Part shown: piece by piece, positions 21,310 to 64,000 of the stretch
How positions within the stretch are numbered: position 1 is the stretch's first letter
Layout of the letters: each line of letters starts with the position of its first letter
The notes under the pieces: generated by a model
The model's input: only the letters and a program-made list of their open reading frames with translations
What the model was told of the DNA's origin: nothing
Database searches by the model: none
Made by a program: the position numbers and the translations under genes
Origin: Tetrahymena thermophila SB210
Lineage: Eukaryota; Ciliophora; Oligohymenophorea; Hymenostomatida; Tetrahymenidae
DNA: 64,000 nucleotides
Direction of reading: 5' to 3'
Assembly: GCF_000189635.1 (NCBI RefSeq)
Contig: NW_002476422.1
Coordinates: 1 to 64,000 of the forward strand

Positions 21310-22383
21310 TCATTAAAACGAATAGCAAGAGCACATAAATGTAAACTATTATTCAAGACAAATTAGCTCTCCTGGGTACTTTGAAGTACCTAAAGCAACT
21401 AAAAGGGGCATAAAATGATCATCGCTGTGATGCATGTAATTATACATTTTATGTTATTTAATAGCAACTATTGCATCTCTTCTTTTTTACTCATCTTTAT
21501 TAGTTACTATTTCGATTAGATACTTTTCCCATTCTTTTGACCAAGCAGTAAATTAAGGATGATTCATATAAGTGAAAGAATGTGTTGAAGCACCACTATT
21601 AATTATGATTGTATTTTCATCTCTAAATTGTTCTAAAATTTATCCAATTTTATAATGGAAGGCTGTGTCCATTCCAGAATGGAGACTCACCTGCACTATT
21701 TAAGGAGCATATTTTGTATTGCTTTGAAAGGCCTTTTATTATTCATTTATGTCATAGAGACAGAAAAGTCCACCCCAACCTCCATGATCTATATCTTCTG
21801 ATGTTGTTGTTTTAGCTTAAATCTTATTGTCCAATAGCTTTTGATGGATTTATTTAGCTAATTCCACATTTGTGTCTAAAGAAAAATTAAATTTGTAGAG
21901 CCACTTGCTGGGGTGGTCATGTACTACTTTTGGATGAGGATTTAGATTTACTGTGACTTATTTTTCTTCCCAGTGTCCTGATATTATGATTGCAGTTTTA
22001 ATTCTACTTTGCAATTTGTTATCTTTTGTATACTTATTGAGACATTTAAATAGTTAAGTATCTGGGTTGAGAGTCTCTCCTACAAGACCATGAGATATAA
22101 ATAAACTAGGTAATCTGGTAGCTTGAGATGTCATTTGATCTTTTTAATTAGTTTTCGATTTATTCTAGTTTTTGTCTGTATTTAGTTTTAGGTTTGTTTC
22201 TGAAGCTAGTTTTTTTTGTTATTAATTTTAGATTTTAAGAAGATTTGTTTATGATTGAGGTTATTATTCGGCTTTAGAAACTTTTTATAGTGCACTGAAT
22301 TAGAATTAAGGTAGGTAGTAAACCAAGAATAGAATAATAATTACTTATACGATTGTTAACTATTTTATATTTTTTTAATTCAT
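21310..22383 (-). CDS. Class III extradiol dioxygenase (DODA/LigB-type), copy B, with N-terminal signal-anchor extension (357 aa)
   Basis: The catalytic part (from the Met at 22134, 274 residues) closely matches copy A: LPSLFISHG, SGHWEE, HDHPSKW, DHGGWGGL, SLHSGMDTAFHY, NSGASTHSF and HHSDDHFMPLLVALGT. All likely metal-binding histidines are present. The same frame stays open 83 codons further upstream to an ATG at 22383. That extension begins MNQKNIKQLTIVQVIIILFL, a hydrophobic segment, followed by a Gln/Lys/Asn-rich linker. I infer a membrane-anchored or lumen-directed form, unlike copy A. The shorter 274-aa start at 22134 remains possible, but the extension lacks any TGA and has a sensible N-terminus. 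Confidence 0.82.
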
Positions 22384-25290
22384 TATTTTTAACTAATATT
22401 TTTTTTTTTGCTTTTAAATTTGAATTTTCATTTGCCTATTTCTTTCTAGACTAATTGAATAAAGTTAATAATTGTTAAAACACACATTACACTCTTCAAT
22501 TTTTTCTTTAGAATGTTTAAAGAAAAATATTCTGATTAATTCTTTAAGAATACACATAAAAAATAATAATTCTATTATAAAAAATATTAACCTATAGCTA
22601 AATAAATGAATTATCCTTAAATTTAAAAGACTCCTTTTATTTTTGCTTAAACCTTTTTATTAAGTCGCTATCTAATCGCATTTTTAAATGAAGGTAAGAC
22701 ATTTAAAAGCAATAATTATTTCTGTAAAAATTCTTAGAAATGTTATTCTCAAAAATAAAGCTTACATTAATAAATCTAGTTAAATTAAGTGTAATTTTAA
22801 TAGTTTAACAATCTATTTGTAAATGTATAAGATTAGTTTATAGATTTATTTAAAGATAATACTTAAAAGGATTATTAGAAATAATTTTTTGTTTCAATAG
22901 AATTTTGTAATAAATAAAATAATTTTTATTGAAATAAAGTTATTAAGGTTTACAGAACAAATTATTACATAAAAATAAAAATAATTTAAACTACTTCTAA
23001 AATAAGCAGAAATAATACTGATTACAACCTAATAATAATTTAATAAAATTTTTCTTTCGAAGAAACATAGAATAATCACAATAATTTCAATTTTAGCTTT
23101 AATAAAAACTATCATATTATATTCTATTAAAAATTCTTTCATTTATTTTAATGGTTTTTGATAATTTAATTATTTCCTTCTACATTTTTAAATACTCCTA
23201 TTACAAACAACATACATACATACATACATACATACATACATACATACATAATATTAAAATATAATAAAACTTCAGTAGAAATTTTTTAATTTGATAATAG
23301 AAAGACTTATTAAATATAATAATTACAATAAATCATATATTTTAGTTCCTTGCTTTTATTAAATCCTAAATTTACTTTTAAACATAAAATATTCTTTGAT
23401 TTATAAATGTTAAGATATTTTTTAGGTAATTTAATGCTTTTACTGCTAAAAAGGTTTAGTGACAAATAAATATTTTACTCGCTAGGTAATAAATCTTTTC
23501 TTACTCTCATGTATGATTTTATAATAATTTATTAGGGGAAATCTATTTATCTCAGTGAGTTATTTTGATTCTAATTCACTATAGTTAGTTAATTTTTATA
23601 AATTGTAAAATGTCAGACAAAGATTATAATAAAATGAAATTAAAAATATTAAATAATTAATTTTATTTCCTAAATTTCAACTTTACTTAAAAAATTTTTT
23701 AAAACAATAAAAAAACACTTTATTTGCTAACCAATTTGAAGTTAAATTATTTAAAACTTTAAGCAGTGTAAATAAGAAATATTTTTTTATTATAAAAGTA
23801 TTTTGATTTATTAATAGTTTAAATTTTTTATCCAATTAAAAAAGTACAATAAATAATTATGCGCATAAAATGTATAATTATGAATAATATCTTAATATTT
23901 TATTTAATTTTTTAACAAATCAAAAATTTCGTTTGTATTTTATTTGGATATCTTTGATTAATAAATTTTAAAATATATGAAAAAATAATTACTCATGATA
24001 ATTTTAGATGTTATCTTATGATATTTATATCAGTCTATTAATTTTAATGTGAGATAAAATAGATTTTATATTAAAGTTAAAATCTTATTTTCTAGTTACA
24101 AATTCAGATTTAATTATTATTTTTTAAGAATCAAAGAAATTTCAGAGGAAACAAATTTTTTAGATTCTCCATAATAATCTTTAATAATCATATATAATTA
24201 TTAGAATTATATAAAAAATTGATTTCATTTGAAACATATTATTAATTTCTTTTGATACTAAATTTATTTAGATCTTTTATGAATATTATTTGAAAGTTTT
24301 AGTTTAAAAATAATGATTATTTGACATTTTTTCTAATGTAATTATTTTTTAACATTTTGCAACAAGTCAATTGATTATTACTAAAAATGGTCTCATAATT
24401 TCCTAAAATTTAAATAAATGAGTTAATAAGTAAAGAATATCAAAAATTAAGGCTTTATATTTTTTAAATAATTAACGAAATAAAATTAATTTAAAAAATA
24501 TATCAAAATTAATATTAGATAATTATTCTTCAAATATCAATCCATTTAATTTGAGTAAAAATTATTTAATTTAATTGCTTAATATTTGAACTAACCTAAA
24601 ATAATTAAAAATTTGTTGTTAAGAAAAATAATTGTTTCTTATAAATATTATAAAATAAATATATTTTATTAAACTAAAAATATATTTTTAATAAGGTTAA
24701 ATTATTTAAGATTATTTATTGCTAATATTTCAAATTTTGTTTGATTAAATTTAATTCTTTTATATCAGAAAATTTTTGATAATTTATTTGATAATAAAAG
24801 TTTTTTTTAGAATAAAAAGTAATTTAGATAAGTAAGTAAAAACCATTTATTTTTCTTTCTTAAATTGAATTAATTAAAAATGATAATTACAATTTTTCTA
24901 AAAATAGGGATTAAAAAAGTAGATTTCGTCAAACATGTCTTTAAAAGTTATTTTAAAATTGAAATATATTACTTGATTTAAATTAAGTTGATATTTTCTT
25001 TCAATATTTAAGCAAAAAAAAAATAAAGTAATATAAAAAGCATTTTAAAAAAGTAACTATGAATAGAAAATATCTGTCTGCAATAAGTAAGTAATTAGAC
25101 TAAAATAGAAAGATGAAAATAAGAAAGATTCTTATCAGCAGATTAATTTTCTATCAAAAATATTAATGAAGGAAAAAAGTTAAAGTTAAATAAAATGCAT
25201 TTAAAATCTAAATTGAATAATGTAAAATAACTAATAAGAAAATAAATAAGATTTATTTTGGTAAAAAGAACAAAGAAAAAAAGAAAGTAA
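22384..25290. other. Gene-free AT-rich region with a CATA microsatellite
   Basis: About 2.9 kb has no supported gene. The one distinct element is a (CATA)n microsatellite at about 23209-23250. The segment just after 22384 should contain the promoter of dioxygenase copy B. Confidence 0.5.
23209..23250. repeat. (CATA)n microsatellite
   Basis: About ten perfect ACAT/CATA units stand in AT-rich sequence with no gene nearby. It is an ordinary simple repeat. Confidence 0.95.
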
Positions 25291-25798: not shown

Positions 25799-26845
25799 AG
25801 TAGGGCTATAAAACTTACATCTATATTTTATGTTTTGTTGGATTAATAATAATACCTGACTTAACTAAATAAAACAAATTTGTTTTTAAAATATAATTCT
25901 TTATATCTCAACCTTACAACTTTATTTTTATTTCCGCATAAAATTAAATATTTTTTTTTATGATTAAGAGGAATTAATAATATTGCTTTTAATATTAGGT
26001 TGTACAGCCAATTTTAAATTTTATTAAATAGGTTTATAATTGTAAATCATTTATGGAAATTTCATATTTGCTTTTATTTTTAACTAATTTAAATTGATTT
26101 TGAGTAAATTTTTGATTTACAACCTTTAATCTGATATCATAGATTTGAAAAGAAAGAAAGAAAAATTAAATATTCTTCATTTAAAAAAACATATAAAAAG
26201 TAAAAATTAATTATAATTTGTCACTAACTAACTAACTCATTTTTAAATTGAATGTGATTTATCAATAAAGAATTCATCTAAATAATAAATCATTATAAAT
26301 TGATTTAGGTGTATTTAATAGAATAGATGAAGGAAAATTAATTGATTAATTAATTATTTGTAAATTTAAAAAATAAATCCACTTTTGATTTAGACTTAAA
26401 TGCAAGTCTTACATAACTGATTGAAGGTAAATTTAAAAAAATAAATTGATAAAAGCGCTTAAAAGTATTAAAATTCTTTTTTAATTATCGCTTTTTCTCT
26501 ATCCAAGAAGCTAAATAATTGTCTTTGTTAATAAGGTTTTATAACTTAATTATACAAATAAATGAATTATTCATTTAGTAAGTGCTGAAAGCATAAATAA
26601 TCTCTGTTTTGGATTGTATTTTAATTTTTCTTCTTTAAGTTAATTATGGATTGAGATTGAAAGTTGAAGAAATTAAAATAAGGAAGTAGAAATAAATTAT
26701 GTGAACCACTTCTACTAAGAGAGTTTTTTTAATTTGTTTTTATAGTTAAAAGCAATCTAAATCAAAAAAACTATTAAAAATTCAATTAGAATAAATAATT
26801 TATTAAAAAAAGTAAAAAGAAATTTAAAACAAAGGATTGAAAATT
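25799..26845. other. Intergenic AT-rich region upstream of the antigen-like gene
   Basis: I see nothing beyond AT-rich spacer and the A-rich leader directly before the next ATG. A frame runs on through 25801-26098 without TGA but starts nowhere convincing. Confidence 0.45.
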
Positions 26846-28108
26846 ATGAATAATAAACATATTATTTTTGCCTTAATTATGGCAGCATTTGCAGTACAAG
26901 CTAATGCTTAATGCGCTTCAAATGCATCTGGATCTCCTGGAAGTTGTTTATGTAATTAGGGATATTATGGAACAAATGCTGAATCAAATGGTACATGTAA
27001 TTAATGTCCTACAGGAACAACAACTGCAGCTCCATCTAGTGCTTCTGGAGGAAACACTAATTCTGGTACAACTATCATTGTTTGCTCTCTTTGTGATGTT
27101 AACTATTACATGACTAAAGCTGCAGGTGCTACTCAAGGCTACTAAAACACTCCTGCTGCTGCATTATGTAACGCTTGCCCACCAGGAACAGGAAATTCAG
27201 GAGCTTCTTCAGCTGGAGATGTTTCTTAATGCACTATTTGCTTACCAAATTATTATATGACGGCACTTCCTGTAGCTGCAAACCCTGGTTCTGGTATTAA
27301 CGCTGCAGCAGCTACCTGCATCCTATGTCCAGATGGTTCTGGTAATGCTAGTGGAGTAAATGCTGTAGGAAATGCTTCTTAATGTAACACTTGTGTAGCA
27401 AATTTCTATATGTCAGCAGCTGCTACTGGTACAAAATAAGCTAATTGTTAGGCTTGTCCTATTGGATCAGGAAATGCTTCTGGATCAAGTACGGTTTCTG
27501 ATTCTTCTGTTTGCAATATTTGCCAGAAAAACTATTTCATGACTGCATTAGCTTCAACAGGAGTTTCTGCAAAATGCTCTCCTTGTCCTAGTAACTCCTA
27601 CAGCAGCGGTTCTACTTCAGTTAATTCAATTGCATCATGTATGTGCTTTGATAGTAATGCTGTTGCTCTTTCTTCAACTATTACTCAATGCTAATGCAAA
27701 AACGGATTTTTTGGAAAAGTTGCCACTGTTTTAGGCTAATCAAGTGGATGCAAGTAATGTCCAAAGGGACAATTTACTACAGCAGGAGCTAATTGCAATA
27801 TTTGTACCGCAGGTTCTACTATTACTACTGATTAAGGAGGTTGCACTTGCAACGATAGTAGTACAGGAACATTGCCTTGGAATCCAGCTACAAACGTTTG
27901 CGAATGCTAAACAGGATACTATGGTAATCCTTCTACTGCTACAACTGTAGGAACTACTGGTTCATGTACCTCTTGCCCTAAAGGCACTTCTTCTACTAGC
28001 GGATAAGCCTAAGCAGCTAGTGATTGTGTACAAATTCCAGGAGCTACAACATATTCAATGATAATCTACTTTTCAGGAGTTTTAGGAGTTTTAGCATTGC
28101 TTATTTGA
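26846..28108 (+). CDS. Immobilization-antigen-like GPI-anchored surface protein (420 aa)
   Basis: This is a cysteine-periodic surface protein resembling ciliate immobilization antigens. The start MNNKHIIFALIMAAFAVQANA is a signal peptide. The body repeats a unit of the form C..CP.G(T/S)GN.SG, then C..C, then N(Y/F)(Y/F)M(T/S). Four such units are clear (NYYMT, NYYMT, NFYMS, NYFMT). They are followed by CxC-containing and further CPKG-containing segments. It is rich in Ala, Ser, Thr and Gly. The C-terminus YSMIIYFSGVLGVLALLI is a hydrophobic GPI-attachment signal. Such proteins coat the cell and cilia and in Tetrahymena are expressed in mutually exclusive sets. I cannot assign it to a named serotype locus. 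No intron is visible, and TAA/TAG codons for Gln are frequent. Confidence 0.88.
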
Positions 28109-35982: not shown

Positions 35983-38142
35983 TCATAACTTGGGATTTAT
36001 ACCACTGTTTCTGAAATAATTTGCTTTTTATTCTATTTCTGTTTGGTTTAATGGCTAATCTATTAGAATATTGATTATGTAGAGTCTTCCTTAGTTTTTA
36101 AAAGCTTAATTCAAAGCTTATTTCAACTCTTTCAAATTATTTACTAAAATGCCTACTCCTCCATAATTATCAGCTGCTTTCTCAAACCTAATTGATGGAT
36201 GGGCTACAAATTAATAATTCTATTGCTTATTTTCTTAGCTTTATTTTTTATACATACCTAATTTATTTTAATAATTATTTTCATTGATATAAAAATATCT
36301 TAAATTTTATTACCTGCATATTTTTTTGTATTAAAAATTATAGCTATGAATGGTAGCTTGTATTGAGATGAGGCCTCTATATCTGCTTATGATAAATTGA
36401 AGGATTCGTCATCAAAAATGCACACTACTGGTTTGTTTTTATATACACACTTAGATGCTATGCAAAAAGGAATACTTACACCTTTTATAATACTATTTCC
36501 TGAGCTTAAATACTACTTTGGTTTTACCTAATTTATTATTGGTCTTGCCATATTTTTTATATCATCACCTTCTATTACACATATAAAATCTTTAGGTAAA
36601 ACGTTAACTATTTCTCCTAAAGCAGAATAAAAACTTAAATATTGCTTTTCTTCAAAAAGCAAATATTTGTTAACCTACTCATTTCTATGAATTATCTACT
36701 AAATTGTTTACCACCATTTAATTTAAATCTACCTAGAGTTAAATCCTTATTTTTTAATTGAGATTAAAACAAAATAATATAAAAATATATAATTAATACC
36801 TTTCATTTCAAGATAAAGCATTCTTATTGTATCTTAAATATTTCCACATAAATTTACAGTGCCTTGAATGAAATAGTTAAAATATTCAGGATCATTAAAT
36901 ATTTAAATAATTTGTGCATCTCTGTTAAATTAAGGGTATTGGCCGAAGTCTAATATCCAATTAAGACCCGTTCCGATTAAAAGTATGACATCTGTGTTTT
37001 ATAAAACGTAATTTTGAGCTTAGATAACACAGCAATTATGCTTATCTGAAATGACTCCTTTACCAAACAATGTAGGTAAAAATGGCAGATAAATCTTGCT
37101 AATTAATTTTTTTATTTCTGCTTCTTCAGCATGATTTAAAGGACCTTTTAAATTAAATAATTAAATGAAATACGTGATTAGTAGTTAGTCTAAATAGATG
37201 TGTAAGTTTTTATGTATAAAATATTTGGCATGTTTTTTTTTAATTAAAACTTAATATTAAGTCATAGTATTTGCTTGGTTGTAATATTCTTCGCTACTAA
37301 CAAAAATATAATAGCTATTTTATCAGAAATCTATCATTTATAAAATCACAATTAATCAATATAGTAATTACCAATCACAATTAAAGGATTCTTTGCTTTC
37401 TTCAAAAGGTCTGCTGCTATACTGATATCTTCATATGAAGACAGAACAGGAGGTGCTTAAGTTATGATTGCTGGCTCTAATGCTTATTAAATTGGTACTT
37501 ATGAATCTAATATATTGCCTGGGATCTCTATGTAGACAGGTCCAGCTCTGCCAGAAACACACATTTTGTAAGCCTTTTCGATCACCATAGGAATATCAGC
37601 AACACTAGTCACCTTCTATGAGTACTTAATATAAAATTTCTTAAATGCCTTCCTATCTATTTCTTAATGAGTGCCTTTCGCTTGATTATATATGTCTTTA
37701 CATGCTGAAATTACTATGACTGGCCATCCATTAATCCATGCATTTGTGAGACCCTCAATAACTTAAATAATATCCTTTCAAATAAAAAATGTAGAACCTC
37801 AAACAATAAAACAAAGCTATTACATATTCTCTACCAAAAACACATATCCCAGGTCTCCCCGTCATAAACCCAATAGCTGATGCTGCAAAAACAGCTCCTT
37901 TTTCATAGTCATAAGTTAATATTCAATTTCTGTATATGCTTTTTACCTTTTTAACTTTTAAACCCAATATTCTTAATCTCGTTAGCTATAAGGGCAATTT
38001 CCAACTGTATCACTGGAGAATTTTCCACACTGAAGCAATACTCTAATCCCTATTATTGCAGAGCCTCTGCCAATAAATTATAACCTAGTTTTTTTTGGAA
38101 TATTGGTTATTTGCTACTGTTTTCTTTAAAAAATATGGACAT
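35983..38142 (-). CDS. Acyl-CoA lyase-like pseudoenzyme, paralogue lacking catalytic Glu and ThDP motif (558 aa, 6 exons)
   Basis: This is a diverged tandem paralogue of the lyase at 32872. Exons 38142-37947, 37897-37835, 37761-37372, 37144-36800, 36745-36314 and 36233-35983 sum to 1677 nt with consistent phases and no TGA. Family landmarks persist: [37 protein letters not shown] and YGGVGILVNN. But GYRNEQ is replaced by GFKSQK, so the catalytic Glu is Gln64. [14 protein letters not shown] has become DDESFNLSQADIEA, and NNNG has become NTKK. The SGPGM segment is deleted. It also has a Ser/Lys/Gln-rich N-terminal extension of about 18 residues. The protein probably cannot bind or use thiamine diphosphate. 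It may be a regulatory or structural subunit, or an early-stage pseudogene. The 227-nt third intron is unusually long and that junction is the least certain. Confidence 0.78.
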
Positions 38143-39613
38143 TTATTTTAATTTATAAAATTAATTACTAATAGTTCTAATAAAAACAAATATATAAATG
38201 TAATTGAGGAATTGAATATGAAATTTATATATGAATGTTAGATAGAGATATATTGATTTATTTATTTATTGATAGATAAGATGTTAAGCTTAAAAAAATC
38301 TTTACTAAATAATATTGTTTTAATTCATGCAAATGATAGTTTATTGAGGTAATAATGATTACTTATAGTTAATTTATTATTATTTATTATAATTAAGTTA
38401 TTGGGTTTCTTGTTTCAATTCCCTATTACGTATTTATTCCAATTTGATGTCATTTTAAGCCCTAATTTCAATAAGCTCCCTTAGCTATAATCAAATTATA
38501 CATTTTTAAAAATAAAAACAACAATTATTAACATTCGTTCATTCGTGTAATCCCACCATTAATAGTCATAATTTTCTAAAGTTAATTAAAATATTCATAA
38601 TTTCTAAAATTTCATTTTGAAATTTGATTATGCTCTACATCCTGTATATTTACTTATTATATTCTGTAATCTACTTGATTTATATTAATTTCAAAGCAAA
38701 AGTAAATCTCTTAAATTTATATTAATTTTCTATTGTATTTCTCACATTATACCATAATAGTAAAGTAAAAAAGCTATCATACAAACAAATTTTAAATAAT
38801 TCTTTAATGAAAAAAATTAAATACATTTTTTACTTTTAAATAAAAAAAATGTTCAAAGTATTTCAACTATAATTATTGAGAATTTTGCATAATTTATTGA
38901 GATGTTTTCATTTTAAAAAACAATTAAAAAAATATTTTTTGATAATGTATTTTTTTTTAATTGCTTTACTTTTAAATATTTAGATATAGATATAAAAATA
39001 TTAATTAATTTTTATTTTATTGAAGTTTTTTCAAGCAAACAAAATGCTTATAAAGAAGGATTATATTAAATGGTTGATTTAAAATTATTATTTCTTTTAA
39101 AATACATACCTTTAATAAAAAGTAATGTAAAAAAATTAATTAATTTTTATAGATAATTTATTGATTAATTTCATAAAATTATCAATTTATTTTAGATATG
39201 AACAAAAATGATAATAAAAGATAGATATAAAATTAGCAAAATAATATTTATAGGTACTTTCATTTTTCAGGATCATAACATTTGGATTTGTTTTATATAA
39301 ATAGTACTAGATAATTTTTGATGATATTAAATATAAATACTTTTGATTATGTATGATAACAAGATTTTTAGATATAATTCATAAGAAATTAATCTCAAAT
39401 TACTCTTTTCTTGTTTATTTGAATGTAAAATAATTTGGATGTAGAAACTTTTATATGACTCTTTAAGAATTAAAAATCTATAAAAAATTAAACATATTTA
39501 GTTAGATACTTCTTAAATAATATTAGTGCAAGAAAAATTTTGTTAGTATGCTTAAATTATTCAATTAAGTTAGTCATGAATTATGCTAATATGAGAATTA
39601 ACATAAAAGAAAA
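38143..39613. other. Intergenic AT-rich region
   Basis: About 1.5 kb contains no supported gene. A GC-richer patch near 38395-38490 has no open frame that looks coding. Confidence 0.5.
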
Positions 39614-40492
39614 ATGGCTATAATATATGCATTTGTCAGCTAAATTTTCTTTGTAACAATGTTTACTTGTGTAGGTATGTTGAGAAAAGGATATACTACA
39701 TAAGAAATTGTATAAGGAAGATAATGCATTGGGTTTATACTGAACTACTTGTTTTGCTATCTATAAAAAATACCAATATATCCTAAAAACACTTTAGAAC
39801 TAAAGCTAATGATTATAAGAGGAGTTATGGGTGCAATAGCAATGCTTTTAATCTTTGAAAGCTTTAAGTTACTTAACCTTTCTGATGCAATTGTTGTTGC
39901 AAATACAAATCCTATTTGGACTACTTTTCTTGCAGCTATATTTTTGGGTGAGAATCTATCTAAAAAATCTGTGATATTTTGCTTGATAAGCTTTATCGGT
40001 ATAGTATTAATCATTAAACCAGCTTTCATATTTGGTGAAACTACTTAATCAACTCAAATAGAAGGGAGAAACTAATTTCTTGGTGGTCTAATTGCTTTAG
40101 TTGGAGCTATTTGCATTTCTTTTATTTAAATAGTGGTAAGTAAAATGTAGAAATAAATGAAATTAAATAATGCCTAAGTGTTAATGTATAGTTACTTCTT
40201 TACTTGTATTATAAGTGGCATTGTGCAATTAGACACTCCAAATAATGAATTTAAAGCTACCCCTAAATACTTATGTTTGATTTCAATAATTGGCGTATTA
40301 GGATTTATAGCTTAACTTTTCTTCTCACGCTCATTTACTCTTGAAAAAGCTTCAATAATATCACCTCTTCAATACACTGAAGTCATTCTATCATTTATGA
40401 TAGATATATTCTTTTTTAATGAATAGATTTTTTTCGTAAATGTAATCGGCTCTCTGCTTGTAGTTTTAGGTAGCATAGCTATACTAATTTGA
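39614..40492 (+). CDS. EamA/DMT-superfamily membrane transporter (292 aa)
   Basis: This multi-pass protein of the drug/metabolite transporter superfamily (EamA type, like SLC35G) probably moves a small metabolite across a membrane; the substrate is unknown. The first EamA half ends with the typical SDAIVVANTNPIWTTFLAA and FLGENLSKKS, then ISFIGIVLIIKP. The second half carries FSRSFTLEKASIISPLQYTEV, FFFNEQ and IGSLLVVLGSIAILI. This is the duplicated five-helix layout, about ten helices in all, and length is normal. The ATG at 39614 is the first in frame after a TGA, and the gene has no intron. It stands alone between long spacers. Confidence 0.88.
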
Positions 40493-47465: not shown

Positions 47466-49069
47466 ATGAAATTTAAAGTCAGTAAAATCAAATTAAATAA
47501 ATAATATTGCGTTTAAGCGTAAATCTTATTCATATTTTTTTAAAGATTAATGTATTTATTTTAATCTTCCTACAAAAAATTCATAAAAATCCATATTTTA
47601 TATGCTAATCAAATAATTCATTTATCAATCAATATCTTATTATTTAGAAATTAATTTTTTCTAATTCAATTAATCACAACATAAAAAAGTCTTTAATCCA
47701 AAAATGTTATATATAAATTTGATTTGATTAAAATATTAACTAAATTACTTAATTAATTATTTATTTATTAATTAGCTGTCAGCATATTCAGCATGCTTAA
47801 AATTGATTATTTTTTCAAGTGTTTAGATTTATAAATGTGTTTATAATAAATAAATCAACTCAAAAAAATATTATTAATTTAATTTTTTAAAAATAAAACA
47901 TTTCATAATAATAATTTAATTCATTTTTCAAAAAAAAATTATATTTCTATTTATAAAATATGAAGCCTAATAATCTATTTAAATTAAAACTCTTCTTATA
48001 AAAACTTTAGTTAATTTTAAATATTTTTTGAAATTATTTTTTATTAAAAATTAAATTCTATTTTAAAAATTAATTAATAAAAATAATGTTTTATATTTTC
48101 ATTTAATAATTAATATATTATTGCTTATTTATAAAATTTTTATGTTTTGAAGATTAGCTAGCTTAAAATAACTTATTTCTAATAATTTATTTAAATTAAA
48201 TTATTTCTAAATAAAATATTTCATAAAAATGATATTTCCATAAATTAAATTACTATTAAAATAATTTTAATTTTATAGTATGGGAAAAAGGTTAAAAGCC
48301 TCATCTTATTATATTTATTGTATAATTTTAGATCAATTGTAAAATTAATCAATTTATATTCATTTTAAATTTGTAATTGCTTGGTTTTTTAACATGAAAG
48401 ACAATTATTGATTATTATAAAGCAAATACACTTTGATCTTTTCCAAATTATAAAATGAATAATGGTTGATAATTAAAATATAGCTTTATTCCTTATTAAT
48501 AAAACATTCGTATAATGCTTTTCCCTTTGAGATATAAGTATATTTCAAAAAAAACTATTTTACTAAAAATAAAAAAAATATTTATTATTTAATAGATACT
48601 ATAATTTAATTTTCATAAAAATTTAATATAGATAAATTTTTAATAATGTCTTATATGGGTAAGTGTCTTAAACAAAAAATCAAACTATTTCATTTAATTA
48701 CCAATTAAATTTTGCATTAATATTTTTTATTATTTATAAGGTGCATTTTGATTTTTTTTTTTAGAAAACATAAGGCTTTTAGCTTATGTATCTTTATTGT
48801 ATTTGTAAAAATATTATTGTCATGTCTTTTAAAGGTATATTCTGCATAAATTGATATTCACCATTAAAAAGAAAAGTATTTTATTATTTTATCTATTGAA
48901 AATAAAAGTCTTTTATCTACTAATTTACAAAATGCATGCAAATGTTAATATCAAAATTTGATTTTGACAAAATTTCTATTAAAAGAGGTAAGGAAAACTC
49001 ATTATATTAATAATAATTTGTATCCCTTTTCAATACACTAAAAATTAAAAAAAGTCAAAAATCAAAAAA
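47466..49069. other. Intergenic region; right part is the Piwi upstream block, copy 1
   Basis: The left half is AT-rich without features. From about 48180 to 49069 the sequence is recognisably homologous to the regions before the other Piwi genes (52660-53469, 57210-58073 and about 62860-63986). The duplicated unit therefore includes about 0.8-0.9 kb of upstream DNA. Confidence 0.6.
48981..49069 (+). promoter_or_regulatory. Conserved leader of Piwi gene copy 1
   Basis: The block AAAAGAGGTAAGGAAAACTC, then an ATTATNTTNATAATAATTTG-like stretch and AATACACTAAAAATTAAAAA leads into the ATG. It is shared with the other three copies and far better conserved than the DNA further upstream. It probably covers the promoter and 5' UTR. 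Confidence 0.55.
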
Positions 49070-51487
49070 ATGCTTTAATAGTTACCAAAAAGACCACCTA
49101 AATCTTCAGCTCAAGAGATCAGCAAAATATGCAGAAACATTAAGCTTCTTACAAATATGTTTACTATGTAAGTAGAAGCCCCCTAGTCTTCTGATTCTGA
49201 TGGACCTCAAGGTTGTGTCTACAAACTTCTTTGTTATCAATATGATGTTGAATTCTCTCCTAATATTGCTGAGGACAACAGATCCCTAAGATACAAAATC
49301 TTTAAAGAAGCTCGCAGAGATATTGAGACAATCATAGGAAAATTCTCTTTTTCAGGAAAATCTCTATTCTCAATGAAAAATCTTAGCATAGTTAAGCTTA
49401 ACAAAATAAAGAATATTGATGCGATCAATGTTGATGGACAAAAATACTCTATCCTTTTGAGGTTCACAAAAAGCTTTGAAGTGAATGATGAGTCTGCTTA
49501 AAATAAAGACAAGACGTCTGTAAACTTCAAAAAAGGCAATCAAGTCACTTAGTTGCTCAATATCATCTTAAAATCTATCATGCGTGATGAGAAATTTTAG
49601 GAAATTGGAAAGAATTCTAAGTTCTATGATGTTAACTCTAAGAGTGATATTATAATCAAAAGTAGAGATGGATCTACTAGTGCCCTCGAAGCCTACAAAG
49701 GATTCACTTTCAATGTCACTCCAACCTAAGACAGACTTTACTTAATGGTTGATTACTGCAGTAGAATTATCAGAAAAGAAACTGCATTAGAATACTTAAA
49801 GAATAACAACAATTAATTGTCTGGTCTTTCAGTAATTACCAAATACAATAATTATCAAACTTACTTAATCGACAGAGTAGATGACAGAAAAACTCCTAGT
49901 TCTACTTTCCTTAACTAAAAAACTAAAACCTAAATTAGTTTCGCATAATACTACAAGGAGCGTTATAATATCTAAATCAGAGATATGAGACAGCCCTTAC
50001 TTGTTCATAAAAGAAAATACAGAGAGCCTAATACTAACATCTAAAAGGTTGAAGAAGTTTATTTAATTCCTGAATTATGCAATATGACAGGAATGACAGA
50101 CGAATAACGTGAGAATTTCTAAGCAATGAAGGAAGTTGCTACTCATACTAAACTTACCCCATAAGAAAGATATCAAAATTCTGTTAATAATTGTAAATTT
50201 TTAAGTAACAAAACAAGTTCTAGTGGAATTAAAATTGATGAAAGAAGCAATTTGATAGATGCTGTTTAATTAAGAGCTCCTAAAGTCACTTTAGGTGGTA
50301 ATAAGACTGCTAATACCGAAAGAGGTAATTTTGACATGAGAGCTCCAACCTTAGATAAAATTGAGTTTAAAGATTGGTCTCTTATATGTAACAAAAAAGA
50401 TGACTAAAGTGCAGATAATTTTATAGACACTCTTAAGAAGGCTTCCTAGACATTTGGAATTACTGTCAACGATCCTTGCTTTTTGGCCTAGAGAGACTGG
50501 AATGCTAATAACTGGATTAGATCTCTCGATGAAGACTTTTCCAATAATGGTTTACCTCAATTTGTTTTGAGTTTCGGTCAAGCCAATAGTGGTTTATACT
50601 CTGGTTTAAAGAGATTTTTAACTTCAGAAGTAGGTATAGAATCCTAGCATGTTAATCCAAGATCCCTCCAAAAGAACGGAATGAGTGTTGCTTCAAAAAT
50701 TGCTCTACAAATTGCCTCTAAACTAGGTAGAAGAATCTGGTAAGTTGAAACCCCAACTGGAATTGATAAAAACACCATGATTATCGGTATAGAGACCAGT
50801 ATGAAGAAGATCAATAGATAATAGGTGATTGGCGTTGTTGCTTCCATCGACAAAGACTTTACCAAATACTTTTCTGATGTTGAAATTAGGAAAGAAAATG
50901 ATACTACTTTCCCTACTCTCTCTAAGATTGTTACCAAAGCCATATAGGCTTATGTTAAAAATACCAAAGTTGTTCCTGCTGAAGTGATTATTTACAGATA
51001 AGGACTTGGTGAAGGTCAAATTCAATAGAGTTTTAATCTTGAAATTAAAGCCATTTAGAATGGTTTTAGCAACTTTAAGAAAGATTACAATCCACGCTTA
51101 GCCTTTTTCTAGGTTAACAGAAAAATTGGCCAAAAGTTCTATCAATAGCCTTAAGGTGACAAATCAGAAGTTTCAAATCCTGCTTCAGGTACTATTGTAG
51201 CCTCTTAAGTTGTTTAGAACAACTTTGAATTCTTCATGGCTGCATAAAACTGCAATTCTGGTGTTTGTACACCCACTAAGTACACTTGTTTGTATAACAA
51301 CACCAACTTAAAAGAGGATCAAATCTGGTAATTAACTTACTATCAAACATTCAACTATTATAACTGGCAAGGACCTGTAAGAGTACCTGCTGCTATGAAG
51401 TACGCAGAAAAACTTGCTAAGTTTGTTAGTGACACTATCCAAGAATCTGCCAATGAAAACTTGGCTAACAGTCTTTTCTATTTGTGA
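49070..51487 (+). CDS. Piwi-clade Argonaute, slicer triad absent, tandem copy 1 (805 aa)
   Basis: This is an intronless Piwi-type Argonaute (TWI family in Tetrahymena), expected to bind small RNA guides. The N-terminus is MLQQLPKRPPKSS. PAZ spans about residues 245-340, with YKERYNIQIRDMRQPLLV and YLIPELCNMTGM. The MID/PIWI signature MSVASKIALQIASKLGRRIW and the block VVASIDKDFTKYF are Piwi-like. The catalytic triad is gone: the first Asp is Glu575 (IIGIETSMKK), the second is Gln644, encoded by TAA (YRQGLGEGQ), and the His is Glu780 (KYAEKLAKF). Slicing is therefore very unlikely while guide binding appears retained. In T. thermophila several TWI genes are known to be tandem and very similar; I do not assign a number. 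The start is supported by the same ATG in all four copies. Confidence 0.93.
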
Positions 51488-52287
51488 GAAAATAGAAAAA
51501 CGTAGTAGTTAAATTAATTAATAATAATATGCATTTATATACCTTTTTGTATTATATATTTTTCCATATATTTGTATATTTGAAATTAATTTCTTTACTA
51601 CTTTAAATAAAACTTTCATTAATTCAAATTCTTCTCATGATATCAAAATATGTAGTTTATACATTTTACCTTTATAATATTTTTTAGATTAATGTTTGAT
51701 AATATTCGCTTCCATCTCTATAAATTTTATAGAAACATCAAATTTAGTAAGATAAAATCCAAAATAAATTTCATCATTTTAGAATTAATAATAAAACTCA
51801 TGAATTTTTTTTTGTTAAATCTTACTCATAAATTTTGTCTAAAATAATAGAATAAAATATATTTCTGTAAATAAACAAAAGAAAGCTTCATCGAAATTTT
51901 ATTATTTTAACAATATCTTGGCTTATTAAATTTATACAAAGAAAACAAATTTTCCCTTGTTTTACAAGATATTAAGAATTTAATATTTAATCTATTTAAG
52001 CACTACAAAATTATAAACAGAAAAATGACTTTATCATTTTAAATATTATAATAATCTAAGTTGAATGACTCTACTAAATACTTGTTAGCATAATAAATAA
52101 TAGCATAAATTTTAGTATAAAATTATTTAATTTTTTTTTTATGAATAAAATTAATAATTCTATTTTATTTTTTACATAAATTAATTAATGGAATTTTAAT
52201 TAAATAAATAATTACTGTAAGCTCTTATTAATTAACACCCTATTTAAAAATTTTGTGTGATATTTTGGGTGTTAAAATAAAAATGAT

Positions 52288-52640
52288 AAAAATAAAATTT
52301 TTTTAATTGCTTAAATTATTTTATATTGAGGAATTATAAATAGTAAACTCTCATTATTATTTTTTTTTGGAATATGAATTAACTTTATCAAAAAAAATAT
52401 ATAAATAGATATTTGTAAATGTTTATGTTTTGATCAGCATTAGTTATGTATTTATCTTTATTTTATCTGACGTTAGATAAGATTATCTTAATTTTAATTA
52501 TTTATTTGATACAAGTAAAAAAAAATAAATTAATTTATATCTTATTAAGACTATTTTATCTATTCTAATAGCTTAGCAAGTTTTTTTTAAAATACTTTAG
52601 ATTAAAGGCTAAGTATATTTGTATGTTATAATAATACTGA
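52288..52640. repeat. Dispersed intergenic repeat modules B and A (second cluster)
   Basis: Module B (52288-52515) has TTGCTTAAATTATTTTATAT, AATATGAATTAACTTTATC, and a GACGTTAGATAAGATTATCT end. Module A (52530-52640) has TTATATCTTATTAAGACTA and TAGATTAAAGGCTAAGTATA. The order is B then A, the same as at 56745-57100. Confidence 0.65.
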
Positions 52641-53378
52641 TAAATAATTTCCAAATGACTTTAAAAATAATTTTAATTTTATCAAAAAGCTAAAAGGTTA
52701 AAAGCATTATACTATTTTATCTGATTTATAAGATTAAAGTAATTGATTGATTTAGATTTTATATTTGTAATTGATTGCTTTTTTAACTTTCAAGCAAATA
52801 CACTTTAATATATTTCAAATAATAATAAATATAAAATAAATAATGATTTTTGAATAACATAGCTTTATTTCCTATTCATAAAACACTCATATAAAACTTT
52901 TCCCTTTAAGAAATGCATTTATCTCAAAACAAACTATTCTATTAAAAATTTATAAAAATATTTGTAATTTATTTAGTAGATGCTATTATTTAATCCTATA
53001 AAAAACATAATATAGATAAATTTAATCTTTTCTTTTAATTTCTGGGTAAAAAGTGCCTAAGAAAAAAAATAAATCTATCTTATTTAACTATTTTAGACGC
53101 TTTTTTTTGAAAACACAAAGATTGATTTTAATATCAATATCTTTATTGTATTTGTAAAAAATATTATTCTCCATGTCTTAGAAAGTAATATTCAGCTTAA
53201 ATTCTTTTTCGTAATTTATAAGACATGTATTTTATTATTCTATTCTATTTTTAAAATAAAAGTATTTATAAAATAGAAATAATTTTTTCAATCCTAAATA
53301 AAATAAAATAAAAGTGTTTTATCATTTATTTTATAAAATTGAAAATAAATAATTAAATTAATTGATAAAAATTTTTTT

Positions 53379-53469
53379 AAAAAGAGGTGAGGAAAACTTA
53401 TTATCTTTATAATAATTTGTTTCCCTTATTAATACACTAAAAATTAAAAAAAAGTCAAAAATCAAAAAA
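53379..53469 (+). promoter_or_regulatory. Conserved leader of Piwi gene copy 2
   Basis: This is the same leader as before copy 1: AAAAAGAGGTGAGGAAAACT, a TTATCTTTATAATAATTTG stretch, and AATACACTAAAAATTAAAAA up to the ATG. Confidence 0.55.
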
Positions 53470-55887
53470 ATGCTTTAATAGTTACCTAAAAGGCCACCTA
53501 AATCTTCATCCTAAGAGATTAGCAAAATATGCAGAAATATTAAACTACTGACAAATCTGTTTACTATGTAAGTAGAAGCCCCTTAGTCTTCTGATTCTGA
53601 TGGACCTCAAGGTTGTGTCTACAAACTTCTTTGTTATCAATATGATGTTGAATTCTCTCCTAATATTGCTGAGGACAACAGAAACCTCAGATACAAAATC
53701 TTTAAAGAAGCTCGCAGAGATATTGAGCAAATCATAGGAAAATTCTCCTTTTCAGGAAAATCTCTATTCTCAATGAAAAATCTTAGCATAGTTAAGCTTA
53801 ACAAAATCAAGAATATTGATGCGATCAATGTTGATGGATAAAAATACTCTATCCTTTTGAGGTTCACAAAAAGCTTTGAAGTGAATGATGAGTCTGCTTA
53901 AAATAAAGATAAGACGTCTGTAAACTTCAAAAAAGGCAATCAAGTCACTTAGTTGCTCAATATCATCTTAAAGTCTATTATGCGTGATGAGAAATTCTAG
54001 GAAATTGGAAAGAATTCTAAGTTCTATGATGTTAACTCTAAGAGTGATATTATAATCAAAAGTAGAGATGGATCTACTAGTGCCCTAGAAGCCTACAAAG
54101 GATTCACTTTCAATGTCACTCCAACCTAAGACAGACTTTACTTAATGGTTGATTACTGCAGTAGAATTATCAGAAAAGAAACTGCATTAGAATACTTAAA
54201 GAATAATAACAATTAATTGTCTGGTCTTTCAGTAATTACCAAATACAATAATTATCAAACTTACTTAATCGACAGAGTAGATGACAAAAAAACTCCTAGT
54301 TCTACTTTCCTTAACTAAAAAACTAAAACCTAAATTAGTTTCGCATAATACTACAAGGAGCGTTATAATATCTAAATCAGAGACATGAAATAGCCCTTAC
54401 TTGTTCATAAAAGAAAATACAGAGAGCCTAATACTAACATCTAAAAGATTGAAGAAGTTTATTTAATTCCTGAATTATGCAATATGACAGGAATGACAGA
54501 CGAATAACGTGAAAATTTTCAAGCAATGAAGGAAGTTGCTACTCATACAAAACTTACTCCAAATGAAAGATATCAAAATTCTGTTAAAAATTGCAAATTT
54601 TTAAGTAACAAAACAAGTTCCAGTGGAATTAAAATTGATGAAAAAAGCAATTTGATAGATGCTGTTTAATTAAGAGCTCCTAAAGTCACTTTAGGTGGTA
54701 ATAAGACAGCTAATACAGAAAGAGGTAATTTTGACATGAGAGCTCCTACCTTAGATAAAATTGAGTTTAAAGATTGGTCTCTTATATGTAACAAAAAAGA
54801 TGACTAAAGTGCAGATAATTTTATAGACACTCTTAAGAAGGCTTCCTAGACATTTGGAATTACTGTCAACGATCCTTGCTTTTTGGCCTAGAGAGACTGG
54901 AATGCTAATAACTGGATTAAAACTCTCGATGAAGACTTTTCCAATAATGGTTTACCTCAATTTGTTTTGAGTTTCGGTCAAGCCAATAGTGGTTTATACT
55001 CTGGTTTAAAGAGATTTTTAACTTCAGAAGTAGGTATAGAATCCTAGCATGTTAATCCAAGATCCCTCCAAAAGAACGGAATGAGTGTTGCTTCAAAAAT
55101 TGCTCTGCAAATTGCCTCTAAACTAGGTAGAAGAATCTGGTAAGTTGAAACCCCAACTGGAATTGATAAAAACACCATGATTATCGGTATAGAGACCAGT
55201 ATGAAGAAGATCAATAAATAATAGGTGATTGGTGTTGTAGCTTCCATCGACAAAGACTTTACCAAATACTTTTCTGATGTTGAAATTAGGAAAGAAAATG
55301 ATACTACTTTCCCTACTCTCTCTAAGATTGTTACTAAAGCCATATAAGCTTATATTAAAAATACCAAAGTTGTTCCTGCTGAAGTGATTGTTTACAGATA
55401 AGGGCTTGGTGAAGGTTAAATTCAATAGAGTTGTAACTTTGAAATTAAGGCCATTTAGAATGGTTTTAGCAACTTTAAGAAAGATTACAATCCACGCTTA
55501 GCCTTTTTCTAGGTTAACAGAAAAATTGGCCAAAAGTTCTATCAATAGCCTTAAGGTGACAAATCAGAAGTTTCAAATCCTGCTTCAGGTACTATTGTAG
55601 CCTCTTAAGTTGTTTAGAACAACTTTGAATTCTTCATGGCTGCATAAAACTGTAATTCTGGTGTTTGTACACCCACTAAGTACACTTGTTTGTACAACAA
55701 CACCAACTTAAAAGAGGATCAAATCTGGTAATTAACTTATTATCAAACATTCAACTATTATAACTGGCAAGGACCTGTAAGAGTACCTGCTGCTATGAAG
55801 TACGCAGAAAAACTTGCTAAGTTTGTTAGTGACACTATCCAAGAATCTGCCAATGAAAACTTGGCTAACAGTCTTTTCTATTTGTGA
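53470..55887 (+). CDS. Piwi-clade Argonaute, slicer triad absent, tandem copy 2 (805 aa)
   Basis: Same length as copy 1, with no insertions or deletions apparent. It differs by scattered substitutions, many of them silent. N-terminal differences include SSSQE for SSAQE and TNLF for TNMF, and later it has SCNFEIKAIQ for SFNLEIKAIQ. The non-catalytic triad is unchanged: Glu575, Gln644 (TAA), Glu780. PAZ and MID signatures are intact. The near-absence of frame damage and the bias to silent changes imply a recent duplication under selection, or ongoing gene conversion. It lies 4,400 bp downstream of copy 1 (start to start), same strand, with its own upstream block, so it is probably transcribed independently. 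Confidence 0.93.
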
Positions 55888-56564
55888 GATAATAGAAAAA
55901 TGTAGTAGTTAAATTAATTAATAATATGCATTTATATACCTTTTTGTATTATATATTTTTCCATATATTTGTATATTTGAAATTAATTTCTTTACTACCC
56001 TAAATAAAACTTTCATTTTATTCTTCTCATGATATCAAAATATCTAGTTATTTCATTTTATCTTTTTAATATTTTTTAGATTAATATTTGATAATATTCC
56101 CTCTTGAATTAAAATTTAAATTTTATAGAAACATCAAAATTAGTTAGATAAAATCCAATATAAATTTCATCATATTAGAATTAAAAATCTTAATTACATT
56201 TAAGAATTAATTTAAATCTTTTAGGAAGAAAAAATTTATTTTTAAAATTAAAATCATAGAATAAAATAATTGCATTACACTAAAGCGATAAAACCCATAC
56301 TACATTATAATGTTTGTAAAATATTATTTAATTAAGAAGAAAATTAATAGTTTAACTTAATTTTAAATAAATGCTAAATAAGAAAACTTATTATAATTCG
56401 TGTATTTAGCCTTGAAAAAAGCAGTACCATAAGGTATTATATATATAAATAAATAAAAATAATATATAAATTTATAATAAGTGTCTGCAACAATTTAATT
56501 TATGGATGAGCAATATTTAACCATAGTAATAATTTTTTATTGATATAAAAGTCAAAATATAATA

Positions 56565-57100
56565 ATTTATATCTTATTGAGGCTAATTTAATTTTTAAAC
56601 TGAATTGAAATATCTTATCTAATTTAAAAAAAATATTTTAGATTAAAGGCAAAATATATTTGAAAGTTATAATGATATTATAACTAAAATTGAAAAATAA
56701 ATAGTTATTTTTTAAATTAATTTTAAAAAAAGATAAAAATAAAATTTTGTTAATTGCTTAAATTATTTTATATTGAAAAATTATAAATAGTAAACACTCA
56801 TCATTATTATTTTTTGGAATATGAATTAACTTTATAAAAAAATACATTTAAATAAATATTTGTAAATTTTTGTGTTTTGATCAGCATTAGATAAATATTC
56901 ATCTTTGATTATACCTGATGTTAGATAAGGGTTATCTCAATTTTAATTATTTATTTGATACAAGTAAAAAAAGTAAAATAATTTATATCTTATTGAGACT
57001 AATTAATCTATAATCTAAATTCAAATAGTTTAGCTAGTTTTTTTAAAATATTTTATATTAAAGGCTAAGTATATTTGAGAGTTGTAATAATATAGCTAAA
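56565..57100. repeat. Dispersed intergenic repeat modules A, B, A (third cluster)
   Basis: Module A (56565-56680) begins TTATATCTTATTGAGGCTAA. Module B (56745-56965) has ATTGCTTAAATTATTTTATA and ACCTGATGTTAGATAAGG. Module A recurs at 56975-57100 with TTATATCTTATTGAGACTAA and TATTAAAGGCTAAGTATATT. The arrangement shows the modules move or duplicate as units. Confidence 0.65.
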
Positions 57101-57980
57101 ATATAATAATTTATTAATATCATTAATTTTTTAGAATTTTAATTCTCTTTAATCACATTTAAATAGATATTTTTTAATTTTTAGTGCTTTTACATAAATT
57201 TAACTTTTTAAAAATAAAACATTTCATAAATAGCATAATGATAATTTTCATTTATTAAATAATATTAAAAATAATTTTAATTTTATCTAAAAGGGAAAAG
57301 GGTTAAAGCCTCATCCTATTTCATGTAGCGTTTTAGATTAAATCAATTGAAAAATTAATTTATTTATATTTTATATTTTTAATTTCTTGAATTTTTAAAT
57401 TTAAAGTAAATACACTTCAAATAATAATATAGATAAAATAAATAATGATTATTGAATAACATAGCTTTATTCCCTATTAATAAAACACTCATACAAAATT
57501 CTTACCTTTGAGAAATGTATTTATCTCAAAACTAACTAATCTATTAAAAATATAAATAAATATTTGTAATTAATTTGGTAGATGCTATAATTTAATTTCA
57601 ATAAAAAATTTAAGATAGATAAATAAATATAATCTTTTCTTTTAATTTCTGAGCAAAAAGCGCCTAAAATAAAAAATAAATCTATTTTATTTAAATTATT
57701 TAAGACACTTTTTTTTGAAAACATAAAGTTTGATTTTACCATCAATATCTTTATTGTATTTGTAAAAAATGTTATTCTCCTTGTCTTAGAAAGTAATATT
57801 CAGCTTAAATTCTTATTTGTAATTTAAAAGACATGTATTTTATTATTTTATTCTATTTTTAAAATAAATGTATTTTAAAATAGAAATAATTTTGTCAATG
57901 AAATAAAATAAAATAAAAGTGTTTTATTACTTATTTGCAAAATTGTAAATAAATAATTAAATTAATTGATAAAAATTTCT

Positions 57981-58073
57981 ATAAAAAGAGGTGAGGAAAA
58001 CTCATTATCTTTATAATAATTTGTTTCCCTTGTTAATACACTAAAAATTAAAAAAAAGTCAAAAATCAAAAAA
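57981..58073 (+). promoter_or_regulatory. Conserved leader of Piwi gene copy 3
   Basis: This leader is almost the same as that of copy 2: AAAAAGAGGTGAGGAAAACT, then CATTATCTTTATAATAATTT, then AATACACTAAAAATTAAAAA and the ATG. Confidence 0.55.
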
Positions 58074-60491
58074 ATGCTTTAATAGTTACCTAAAAGGCCA
58101 CCTAAATCTTCATCCTAAGAGATTAGCAAAATATGCAGAAATATTAAACTACTGACAAATCTGTTTACTATGTAAGTAGAAGCCCCCTAGTCTTCTGATT
58201 CTGATGGACCTCAAGGTTGTGTCTACAAACTTCTTTGTTATCAATATGATGTTGAATTCTCCCCTAATATTGCTGAGGACAACAGAAACCTCAGATACAA
58301 AATCTTTAAAGAAGCTCGCAGAGATATTGAGCAAATCATAGGAAAATTCTCCTTTTCAGGAAAATCTCTATTCTCAATGAAAAATCTTAGCATAGTTAAG
58401 CTTAACAAAATCAAGAATATTGATGCGATCAATGTTGATGGATAAAAATACTCTATCCTTTTGAGGTTCACAAAAAGCTTTGAAGTGAATGATGAATCTG
58501 CTTAAAATAAAGACAAGACTTCTATAAACTTCAAAAAAGGTAATCAAGTCACTTAGTTACTCAATATCATCTTAAAGTCTATTATGCGTGATGAGAAATT
58601 TTAGGAAATTGGAAAAAATTCTAAGTTCTATGATGTTAACTCTAAGAGTGATATTATAATCAAAAGTAGAGATGGATCTACTAGTGCCCTCGAAGCCTAC
58701 AAAGGATTCACTTTCAATGTCACTCCAACCTAAGACAGACTTTACTTAATGGTTGATTACTGCAGTAGAATTATCAGAAAAGAAACTGCATTAGAATACT
58801 TAAAGAATAACAACAATTAATTGTCTGGTCTTTCAGTTATTACCAAATACAATAATTATCAAACTTACTTAATCGACAGAGTAGATGACAAAAAAACTCC
58901 TAGTTCTACTTTCCTTAACTAAAAAACTAAAACCTAAATTAGTTTCGCATAGTACTACAAGGAGCGTTATAATATCTAAATCAGAGACATGAAATAACCC
59001 TTACTTGTTCATAAAAGAAAATACAGAGAGCCTAATACTAACATCTAAAAGATTGAAGAAGTTTATTTAATTCCTGAATTATGCAATATGACAGGAATGA
59101 CAGACGAATAACGTGAGAATTTCCAAGCAATGAAGGAAGTTGCTACTCATACAAAATTAACTCCTAATGAAAGATATCAAAATTCTGTTAAAAATTGCAA
59201 ATTTTTAAGTAACAAAACAAGTTCCAGTGGAATTAAAATTGATGAAAAAAGCAATTTGATAGATGCTGTTTAATTAAGAGCTCCTAAAGTCACTTTAGGT
59301 GGTAATAAGACAGCTAATACAGAAAGAGGTAATTTTGACATGAGAGCTCCTACCTTAGATAAAATTGAGTTTAAAGATTGGTCTCTTATATGTAACAAAA
59401 AAGATGACTAAAGTGCAGATAATTTTATAGACACTCTTAAGAAGGCTTCCTAGACATTTGGAATTACTGTCAACGATCCTTGCTTTTTGGCCTAGAGAGA
59501 CTGGAATGCTAATAACTGGATTAAAACTCTCGATGAAGACTTTTCCAATAATGGTTTACCTCAATTTGTTTTGAGTTTCGGTCAAGCCAATAGTGGTTTA
59601 TACTCTGGTTTAAAGAGATTTTTAACTTCAGAAGTAGGTATAGAATCCTAGCATGTTAATCCAAGATCACTCCAAAAGAACGGAATGAGTGTTGCTTCAA
59701 AAATTGCTCTGTAAATTGCCTCTAAACTAGGTAGAAGAATCTGGTAAGTTGAAACCCCAACTGGAATTGATAAACACACCATGATTATTGGTATAGAGAC
59801 CAGTATGAAGAAGATCAATAAATAATAGGTGATTGGTGTTGTTGCTTCTATCGACAAAGACTTTACCAAATACTTTTCTGATGTTGAAATAAGGAAAGAA
59901 AATGATACTACTTTCCCTACTCTCTCTAAGATTGTTACCAAAGCCATATAGGCTTATGTTAAAAATACCAAAAGTGTTCCTGCTGAAGTGATTGTTTACA
60001 GATAAGGACTTGGTGAAGGTCAAATTCAATAGAGTTGTAACTTTGAAATTAAGGCCATTTAGAATGGTTTTATCAACTTTAAGAAAGATTACAATCCACG
60101 CTTAGCCTTTTTCTAGGTTAACAGAAAAATTGGCCAAAAGTTCTATCAATAACCTTAAGGTGATAAATCAGAAGTTTCAAATCCTGCTTCAGGTACTATT
60201 GTGGCCTCTTAAGTTGTTTAGAACAACTTTGAATTCTTCATGGCTGCATAAAACTGCAATTCTGGTGTTTGTACACCTACTAAGTACACCTGTTTGTACA
60301 ATAACACTAACTTAAAAGAGGATCAAATCTGGTAATTAACTTACTATCAAACTTTCAACTACTACAACTGGTAAGGACCTGTAAGAGTACCTGCTGCTAT
60401 GAAGTACGCAGAAAAACTTGCTAAGTTTGTCAGTGACACTATCCAAGAATCTGCCAATGAAAACTTGGCAAACAGTCTTTTCTATTTGTGA
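58074..60491 (+). CDS. Piwi-clade Argonaute, slicer triad absent, tandem copy 3 (805 aa)
   Basis: Again 805 codons ending NSLFYL then TGA. It shares most copy-2-specific changes and has its own, such as KHTMIIGIE for KNTMIIGIE, NTKSVPAE for NTKVVPAE and NGFINF for NGFSNF. Glu575, Gln644 and Glu780 again replace the D-D-H triad. PAZ (YLIPELC) and MID (MSVASKIALQIASKLG) are kept. It lies 4,604 bp beyond copy 2. The 99-100-aa frames on the opposite strand of all three copies are shadows. Which of the known TWI genes this is cannot be settled without a genome map. Confidence 0.93.
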
Positions 60492-63986: not shown

Positions 63987-64000
63987 ATGCTTTAATAGTT
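63987..64000 (+). CDS. Start of a fourth tandem Piwi-clade gene (cut by window end)
   Basis: The last 14 bases, ATGCTTTAATAGTT, match the first codons of the three complete genes (M-L-Q-Q-L), and a recognisable leader precedes them. Only the start is visible, so whether the gene is complete or keeps the altered active site cannot be told here. Start-to-start distance from copy 3 is 5,913 bp. Confidence 0.8.

Follow-up and report, generated by a model that had tools for sequence, protein, structure and literature searches.

Can the Piwi proteins encoded by a tandem gene array of the ciliate Tetrahymena thermophila SB210 still cut RNA, and if they cannot, what might they do instead? The DNA that we analysed (the window: 64,000 nucleotides, C125:1-64000) carries three Piwi open reading frames (ORFs) on the plus strand, at 49070-51487, 53470-55887 and 58074-60491, each recognised by ORF, Pfam and genome match and each running without interruption or intron through 805 codons, from ATG to TGA in the ciliate code (table 6). 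The initial annotation had described three such genes in a row; these are indeed intact, but a search of the 101-Mb T. thermophila macronuclear DNA revealed that the array holds five. The fourth gene has its first 14 bases in the window (63987-64000, plus strand; C125:63987-66404 in full) and the fifth lies downstream on the same contig (C125:67992-70412), so that these two are mostly and wholly beyond the window, respectively; all five frames are intact. We conclude that the array very probably encodes five Twi2-type Piwi proteins that are predicted, from their sequences, to bind a small RNA guide but to be unable to slice.

Copy 4 is the gene of Twi2p, its product being 99.75% identical to that protein (Q6UE79). 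Identity to Twi2p is 90.7-91.3% for copies 1-3 and 91.2% for copy 5; copies 1-3 are 97.5-99.4% identical among themselves, and copy 5 is 88.5-88.8% identical to them. Copies 1-3 thus share both family and locus with Twi2p, as judged by identity, by the tandem arrangement and by a clade of the five array copies, Twi2p (P0004) included, with 100/100 support. Individually they may be members of TWI3-TWI6. In-frame TAA/TAG codons number 36, 38 and 39 in copies 1, 2 and 3; a wrong choice of genetic code was rejected, since translating copy 5 and two further Piwi loci (C200 and C9) with table 6 reproduces their SB210 proteins exactly.

As reference for the slicer pocket we used Q8MXZ9, whose record name is Piwi-related protein and which, from its D526, we take to be Twi1p. 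In the alignment to this protein the whole catalytic tetrad (D526/E564/D596/H745; residue numbers taken from motif positions, with D526 in the motif GMDV of P0152) is replaced in the array by E575/T612/Q644/E780, and it is this set, not a D-E-D-H/D tetrad, that copies 1-3, Twi2p and copy 5 (P0005) carry. Glu575 (GAG), Gln644 (TAA) and Glu780 (GAA) are identical in all five copies and, as the initial annotation had proposed, fall in the Asp/Asp/His columns, both against EfPiwi (three HMMER alignments, all to EfPiwi sequences) and against Twi1p. The loss is wider than had been claimed, with the fourth residue gone as well: column 612, which would correspond to the glutamate finger seen in Argonaute structures, is Thr in the array. 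By arithmetic from the ORF starts, the codons of copies 1, 2 and 3 lie on the plus strand at 50792-50794, 55192-55194 and 59796-59798 (575, the first catalytic Asp column), at 50903-50905, 55303-55305 and 59907-59909 (612), at 50999-51001, 55399-55401 and 60003-60005 (644, the second catalytic Asp column), and at 51407-51409, 55807-55809 and 60411-60413 (780, the catalytic His column).

Relatives were compared in a set of 151 proteins (copies 1-3, 32 matches, and 116 new proteins among 120 listed of 213 matches) and in a 61-row alignment (all but one of the 35 proteins P0001-P0035, 12 from among the 116 new proteins, 12 of 15 from a further set, and three genomic fragments). Misalignment of the catalytic columns was rejected, as HMMER to EfPiwi, MAFFT alignments of 34, 151 and 61 rows and the Twi1 D526 anchor all agree. 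Naming proteins by their residues at columns 575, 644 and 780, column 612 is Glu in 18/18 D/D/H rows and in none of the 19 E/Q/E rows of the 61-row alignment, which have T (14), K (2), N, I or H instead. The finger column therefore drifts, whereas 575, 644 and 780 are fixed in all 19 E/Q/E proteins. Since 83 of the 306 columns between residues 500 and 805 are invariant across these proteins, the fixity of these three hints at constraint without establishing it. Had the catalytic residues merely moved, a conserved set would be expected elsewhere; across columns 430-805 the only invariant acidic or His residues of the 19 proteins are D487, E560, E575, E658 and E780, and because E658 is common to all 18 D/D/H rows too, they make up no second D/D/H set.

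The rest of the protein looks like a guide-binding Piwi. The Pfam domains of copies 1-3 are PAZ (residues 228-362) and Piwi (503-788), and the structure, predicted with confidence (predicted local distance difference test, pLDDT, 83.9), superposes on Piwi structures; with both domains in a predicted Argonaute fold and a closer resemblance to Piwi than to AGO proteins, the array products belong to the PIWI clade. The MID residues Y510, K514, Q526, Q547 and K551, which we take to hold the guide 5' phosphate, are identical in 61/61 rows. The PAZ columns 259, 265, 294, 295 and 299, presumably tied to the guide 3' end, hold Tyr in 53, 57, 59, 54 and 56 of the 61 rows, the remaining rows being gaps (7, 2, 2, 2 and 2) or, in a few cases, His, Phe, Trp or Val. 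The PAZ and MID signatures are retained, as the initial annotation had read them.

How far does slicer loss extend in this genome? Our searches scored the best candidates only, and twelve is the number of Piwi loci found; a review likewise gives twelve PAZ/PIWI proteins (PMC6562869; published statements, here and below, are those of the passages found). The tetrad is kept at one of the twelve alone, C173, which carries D/E/D/H and is taken to be TWI1. The other loci outside the array read E/Q/E (C200 and C9), S/E/K (C99), A/Q/C (C434) and D/Q/E (C65). The Twi2-type genes (array, C200, C9) are single exons and TWI1 matches in several; an RNA intermediate or a loss of introns may lie in the history of the Twi2-type family. 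The matches of C99, C434 and C65 are each broken into at least two pieces, separated by introns or by stretches of weak similarity. The last of the twelve is a very divergent Piwi of about 21% identity, matched in one piece and read by eye as S/D/Y (1588-3597 of L035, C114:206000-212000). Outside this count stand the remains of a Twi1-like C-terminus whose frames are broken up (about 2077-2606, minus strand, of L034, C428:65000-71500).

Was the pocket lost before or after the genes multiplied? The 151 proteins comprise 19 E/Q/E, 109 D/Q/E, 7 D/D/H and 1 D/D/N pockets, 5 others (DQS twice, DTE, DEE and DKQ) and 10 with gaps. All 19 Twi2-like E/Q/E proteins come from Tetrahymena (T. thermophila, T. 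malaccensis and T. utriculariae). In a D/Q/E group of 123, whose members are close kin so that the counts are not independent, all 123 have Asp at column 575, 116 have Gln at column 644 (the others being 4 gaps and single E, K and T residues) and 111 have Glu at column 780 (the others being 9 gaps, two S and one Q). These are environmental proteins, perhaps from ciliates with gene-sized chromosomes, their contigs being mostly 2-3 kb; scans of viral_contigs and genome_contigs with one of them (P0028) returned no confirmed relative. In a tree of 56 of the 61 rows (five near-duplicates dropped, catalytic columns left out), the E/Q/E proteins and C434 form a clade (100/99) that is sister to the D/Q/E group (100/97). 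To judge from the sequences, the triad loss is older than the array, and the simplest order would begin with the gain of Gln and Glu, continue with the replacement of the first Asp by Glu, and end with the array. That the loss preceded amplification and was afterwards maintained, as first proposed from the window, therefore agrees with the 19/19 count, with the tree and with the selection estimates given below (0.041-0.193).

Several points weigh against this account. The order of losses depends on a tree in which the stem of the D/Q/E group is long (1.51). C65, itself D/Q/E, is placed outside the Q/E clade; grouping it with that clade was marginally disfavoured (approximately unbiased (AU) test, p = 0.033, for a group chosen after the tree was seen and on a long branch), and its Gln and Glu may consequently be of separate origin. 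This gene (about 3139-5011 of L013, C65:433000-441000) is a divergent Piwi that resembles the environmental clade in its pocket, though the two are not grouped in the tree. As to the loss of slicing itself, we know of no E/T/Q/E protein that has been assayed for it. Finally, signs of gene conversion between the copies mean that a low ratio of nonsynonymous to synonymous substitution rates (dN/dS) need not imply that each copy works alone, and that the five-copy clade may owe something to homogenisation in addition to recent duplication.

These signs bear on the most serious alternative, in which copies 1-3 are functionless by-products of tandem duplication, with frames preserved largely through conversion by a functional gene nearby, for example TWI2. 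The start-to-start spacing of copies 1-3 is 4400 and 4604 bases, and the repeat unit takes in homologous flanks on both sides of the gene. Upstream of copy 1, 48186-49069 (plus strand) matches the other copies at 67-76% identity across the main blocks, the corresponding flanks of copies 2, 3 and 4 ending at 53469, 58073 and 63986; downstream, 51488-51792 (plus strand) is 86-89% identical to copies 2 and 3. The flanks have drifted apart much further than silent sites in the coding region, as is clear for copies 1 and 2, which are only 67% identical upstream (main block) yet have a synonymous divergence (dS) of 0.092. Moreover, 84 polymorphic sites in succession agree between copies 2 and 3 (p = 0.0002 in a permutation test, the lowest value that 5000 shuffles can give), although uneven constraint along the gene could lengthen such runs too; the nine other pairs gave p values of 0.012-0.082 (four) and at least 0.19 (five), uncorrected for ten pairs. 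It may also matter that, of the twelve PAZ/PIWI proteins, eight have been tagged to analyse their small RNAs, so that four were not (PMC6562869). All these observations suit the idea of by-products. Nevertheless, frames are intact in all five copies, homologous sequence is retained directly upstream of each ATG, and dN/dS (NG86, ciliate code), which is 0.041-0.114 within copies 1-3, is still 0.134-0.193 for the remaining, longer-separated pairs, so that we regard functionless copies as unlikely. Pseudogenes were rejected on the reading frame, but selection on single copies is blurred by the conversion signs.

It is less probable still that the copies serve as guide sinks, taking up small interfering RNAs (siRNAs) and buffering the pathway without acting on targets. 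Invariant guide-binding residues, a lost slicer and multiplied genes are what such sinks would display, but this evidence goes no further than compatibility, and the published role of Twi2p as the carrier of a constitutive siRNA class fits an effector at least as well. That the pocket still cuts through an unusual Glu, Gln, Glu set is hardly credible: the three residues are polar and the same in 19/19 proteins, but the finger column drifts as an active site would not, columns 430-805 offer no second conserved acidic/His set, and a change of the first Asp alone abolishes slicing in the published slicer-dead Twi1p mutant, D526N (PMC4331008).

If the array indeed encodes guide-binding proteins that cannot slice, the passenger strand would have to be shed by unwinding, or never be there to begin with, in a slicer-independent maturation. 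The loaded protein could then hold a complementary transcript and recruit partners without cutting it, and the duplicates could increase the amount of Twi2-type protein or share out its expression among them. A bolder idea, which we offer tentatively and think more doubtful than not, is that in an old Piwi lineage the dead slicer pocket became a conserved site without catalysis, under selection for a role of its own, for example keeping a guide-target duplex or a passenger strand in place uncut. This lineage would then be the main siRNA-carrying Piwi type in several ciliates, and Twi1, the Piwi of genome rearrangement, would be the only one to retain the slicer.

The observation itself is sound: a real and conserved loss in a known gene family, whose genes are catalogued and whose slicer-less state is of a known kind among Argonautes. 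Presenting it as a discovery would be overstated, since the TWI2 cluster is known, the siRNA class of Twi2p is published and a slicer-less Twi11p is in print (PMC5666084). What merits specialist attention is the fixed replacement pocket and the extent of slicer loss in the genome. With the tetrad at one of the twelve Piwi loci found, T. thermophila appears tractable for separating the binding and cutting roles of Piwi proteins, and a five-copy array could account for removal of a single gene possibly showing nothing.

Elsewhere in the window, a 423-codon ORF at 26837-28108 (plus strand) has an Ephrin_rec_like match (4.8e-09) and lies in the 2-kb bin whose GC content is highest outside the array. 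Further ORFs encode a LigB ring-opening dioxygenase domain (21310-22767, minus strand), thiamine pyrophosphate enzyme central and C-terminal domains (36132-37265, minus strand) and two EamA transporter stretches (39353-40492, plus strand).

Among known systems, the closest is Twi2p itself, which shares cluster and E/T/Q/E pocket with copies 1-3; these are, however, separate paralogues, and in the sources found binding of 23-24-nt siRNAs, a constitutive class made by Dcr2, is published for Twi2p alone (PMC4331008). Pseudogene-derived small RNAs prefer Twi2 over Twi7 or Twi8 (PMC7792047). The literature passages found make no mention of the catalytic residues of Twi2p, and absence from print is not claimed. 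Twi1p has the same domains and MID residues as the array products but is encoded in several exons rather than one, keeps its tetrad and uses slicing for efficient passenger-strand removal (PMC4331008); since the Twi2 family carries constitutive siRNAs with none of the slicer residues, it must mature and act otherwise. Twi11p, compared by description only, likewise lacks the conserved slicer core but is loaded with late scan RNAs in conjugation (PMC5666084). In Paramecium, PTIWI13 is described as the sole Piwi of its pathway with potential slicer activity (PMC4937312), so that the other Piwis there seem to lack slicing. The environmental D/Q/E Piwis (P0027, P0028 and kin), as the sister clade, mostly share Gln and Glu at the second and third positions but, unlike the array, keep the first Asp. 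A lineage that we presume to be separate from the array is that of the Caenorhabditis elegans WAGO proteins. These too, as described, are multiplied Argonautes without the catalytic tetrad, a state that is the point of comparison with the array, and they work as downstream effectors of silencing (PMC4245922).

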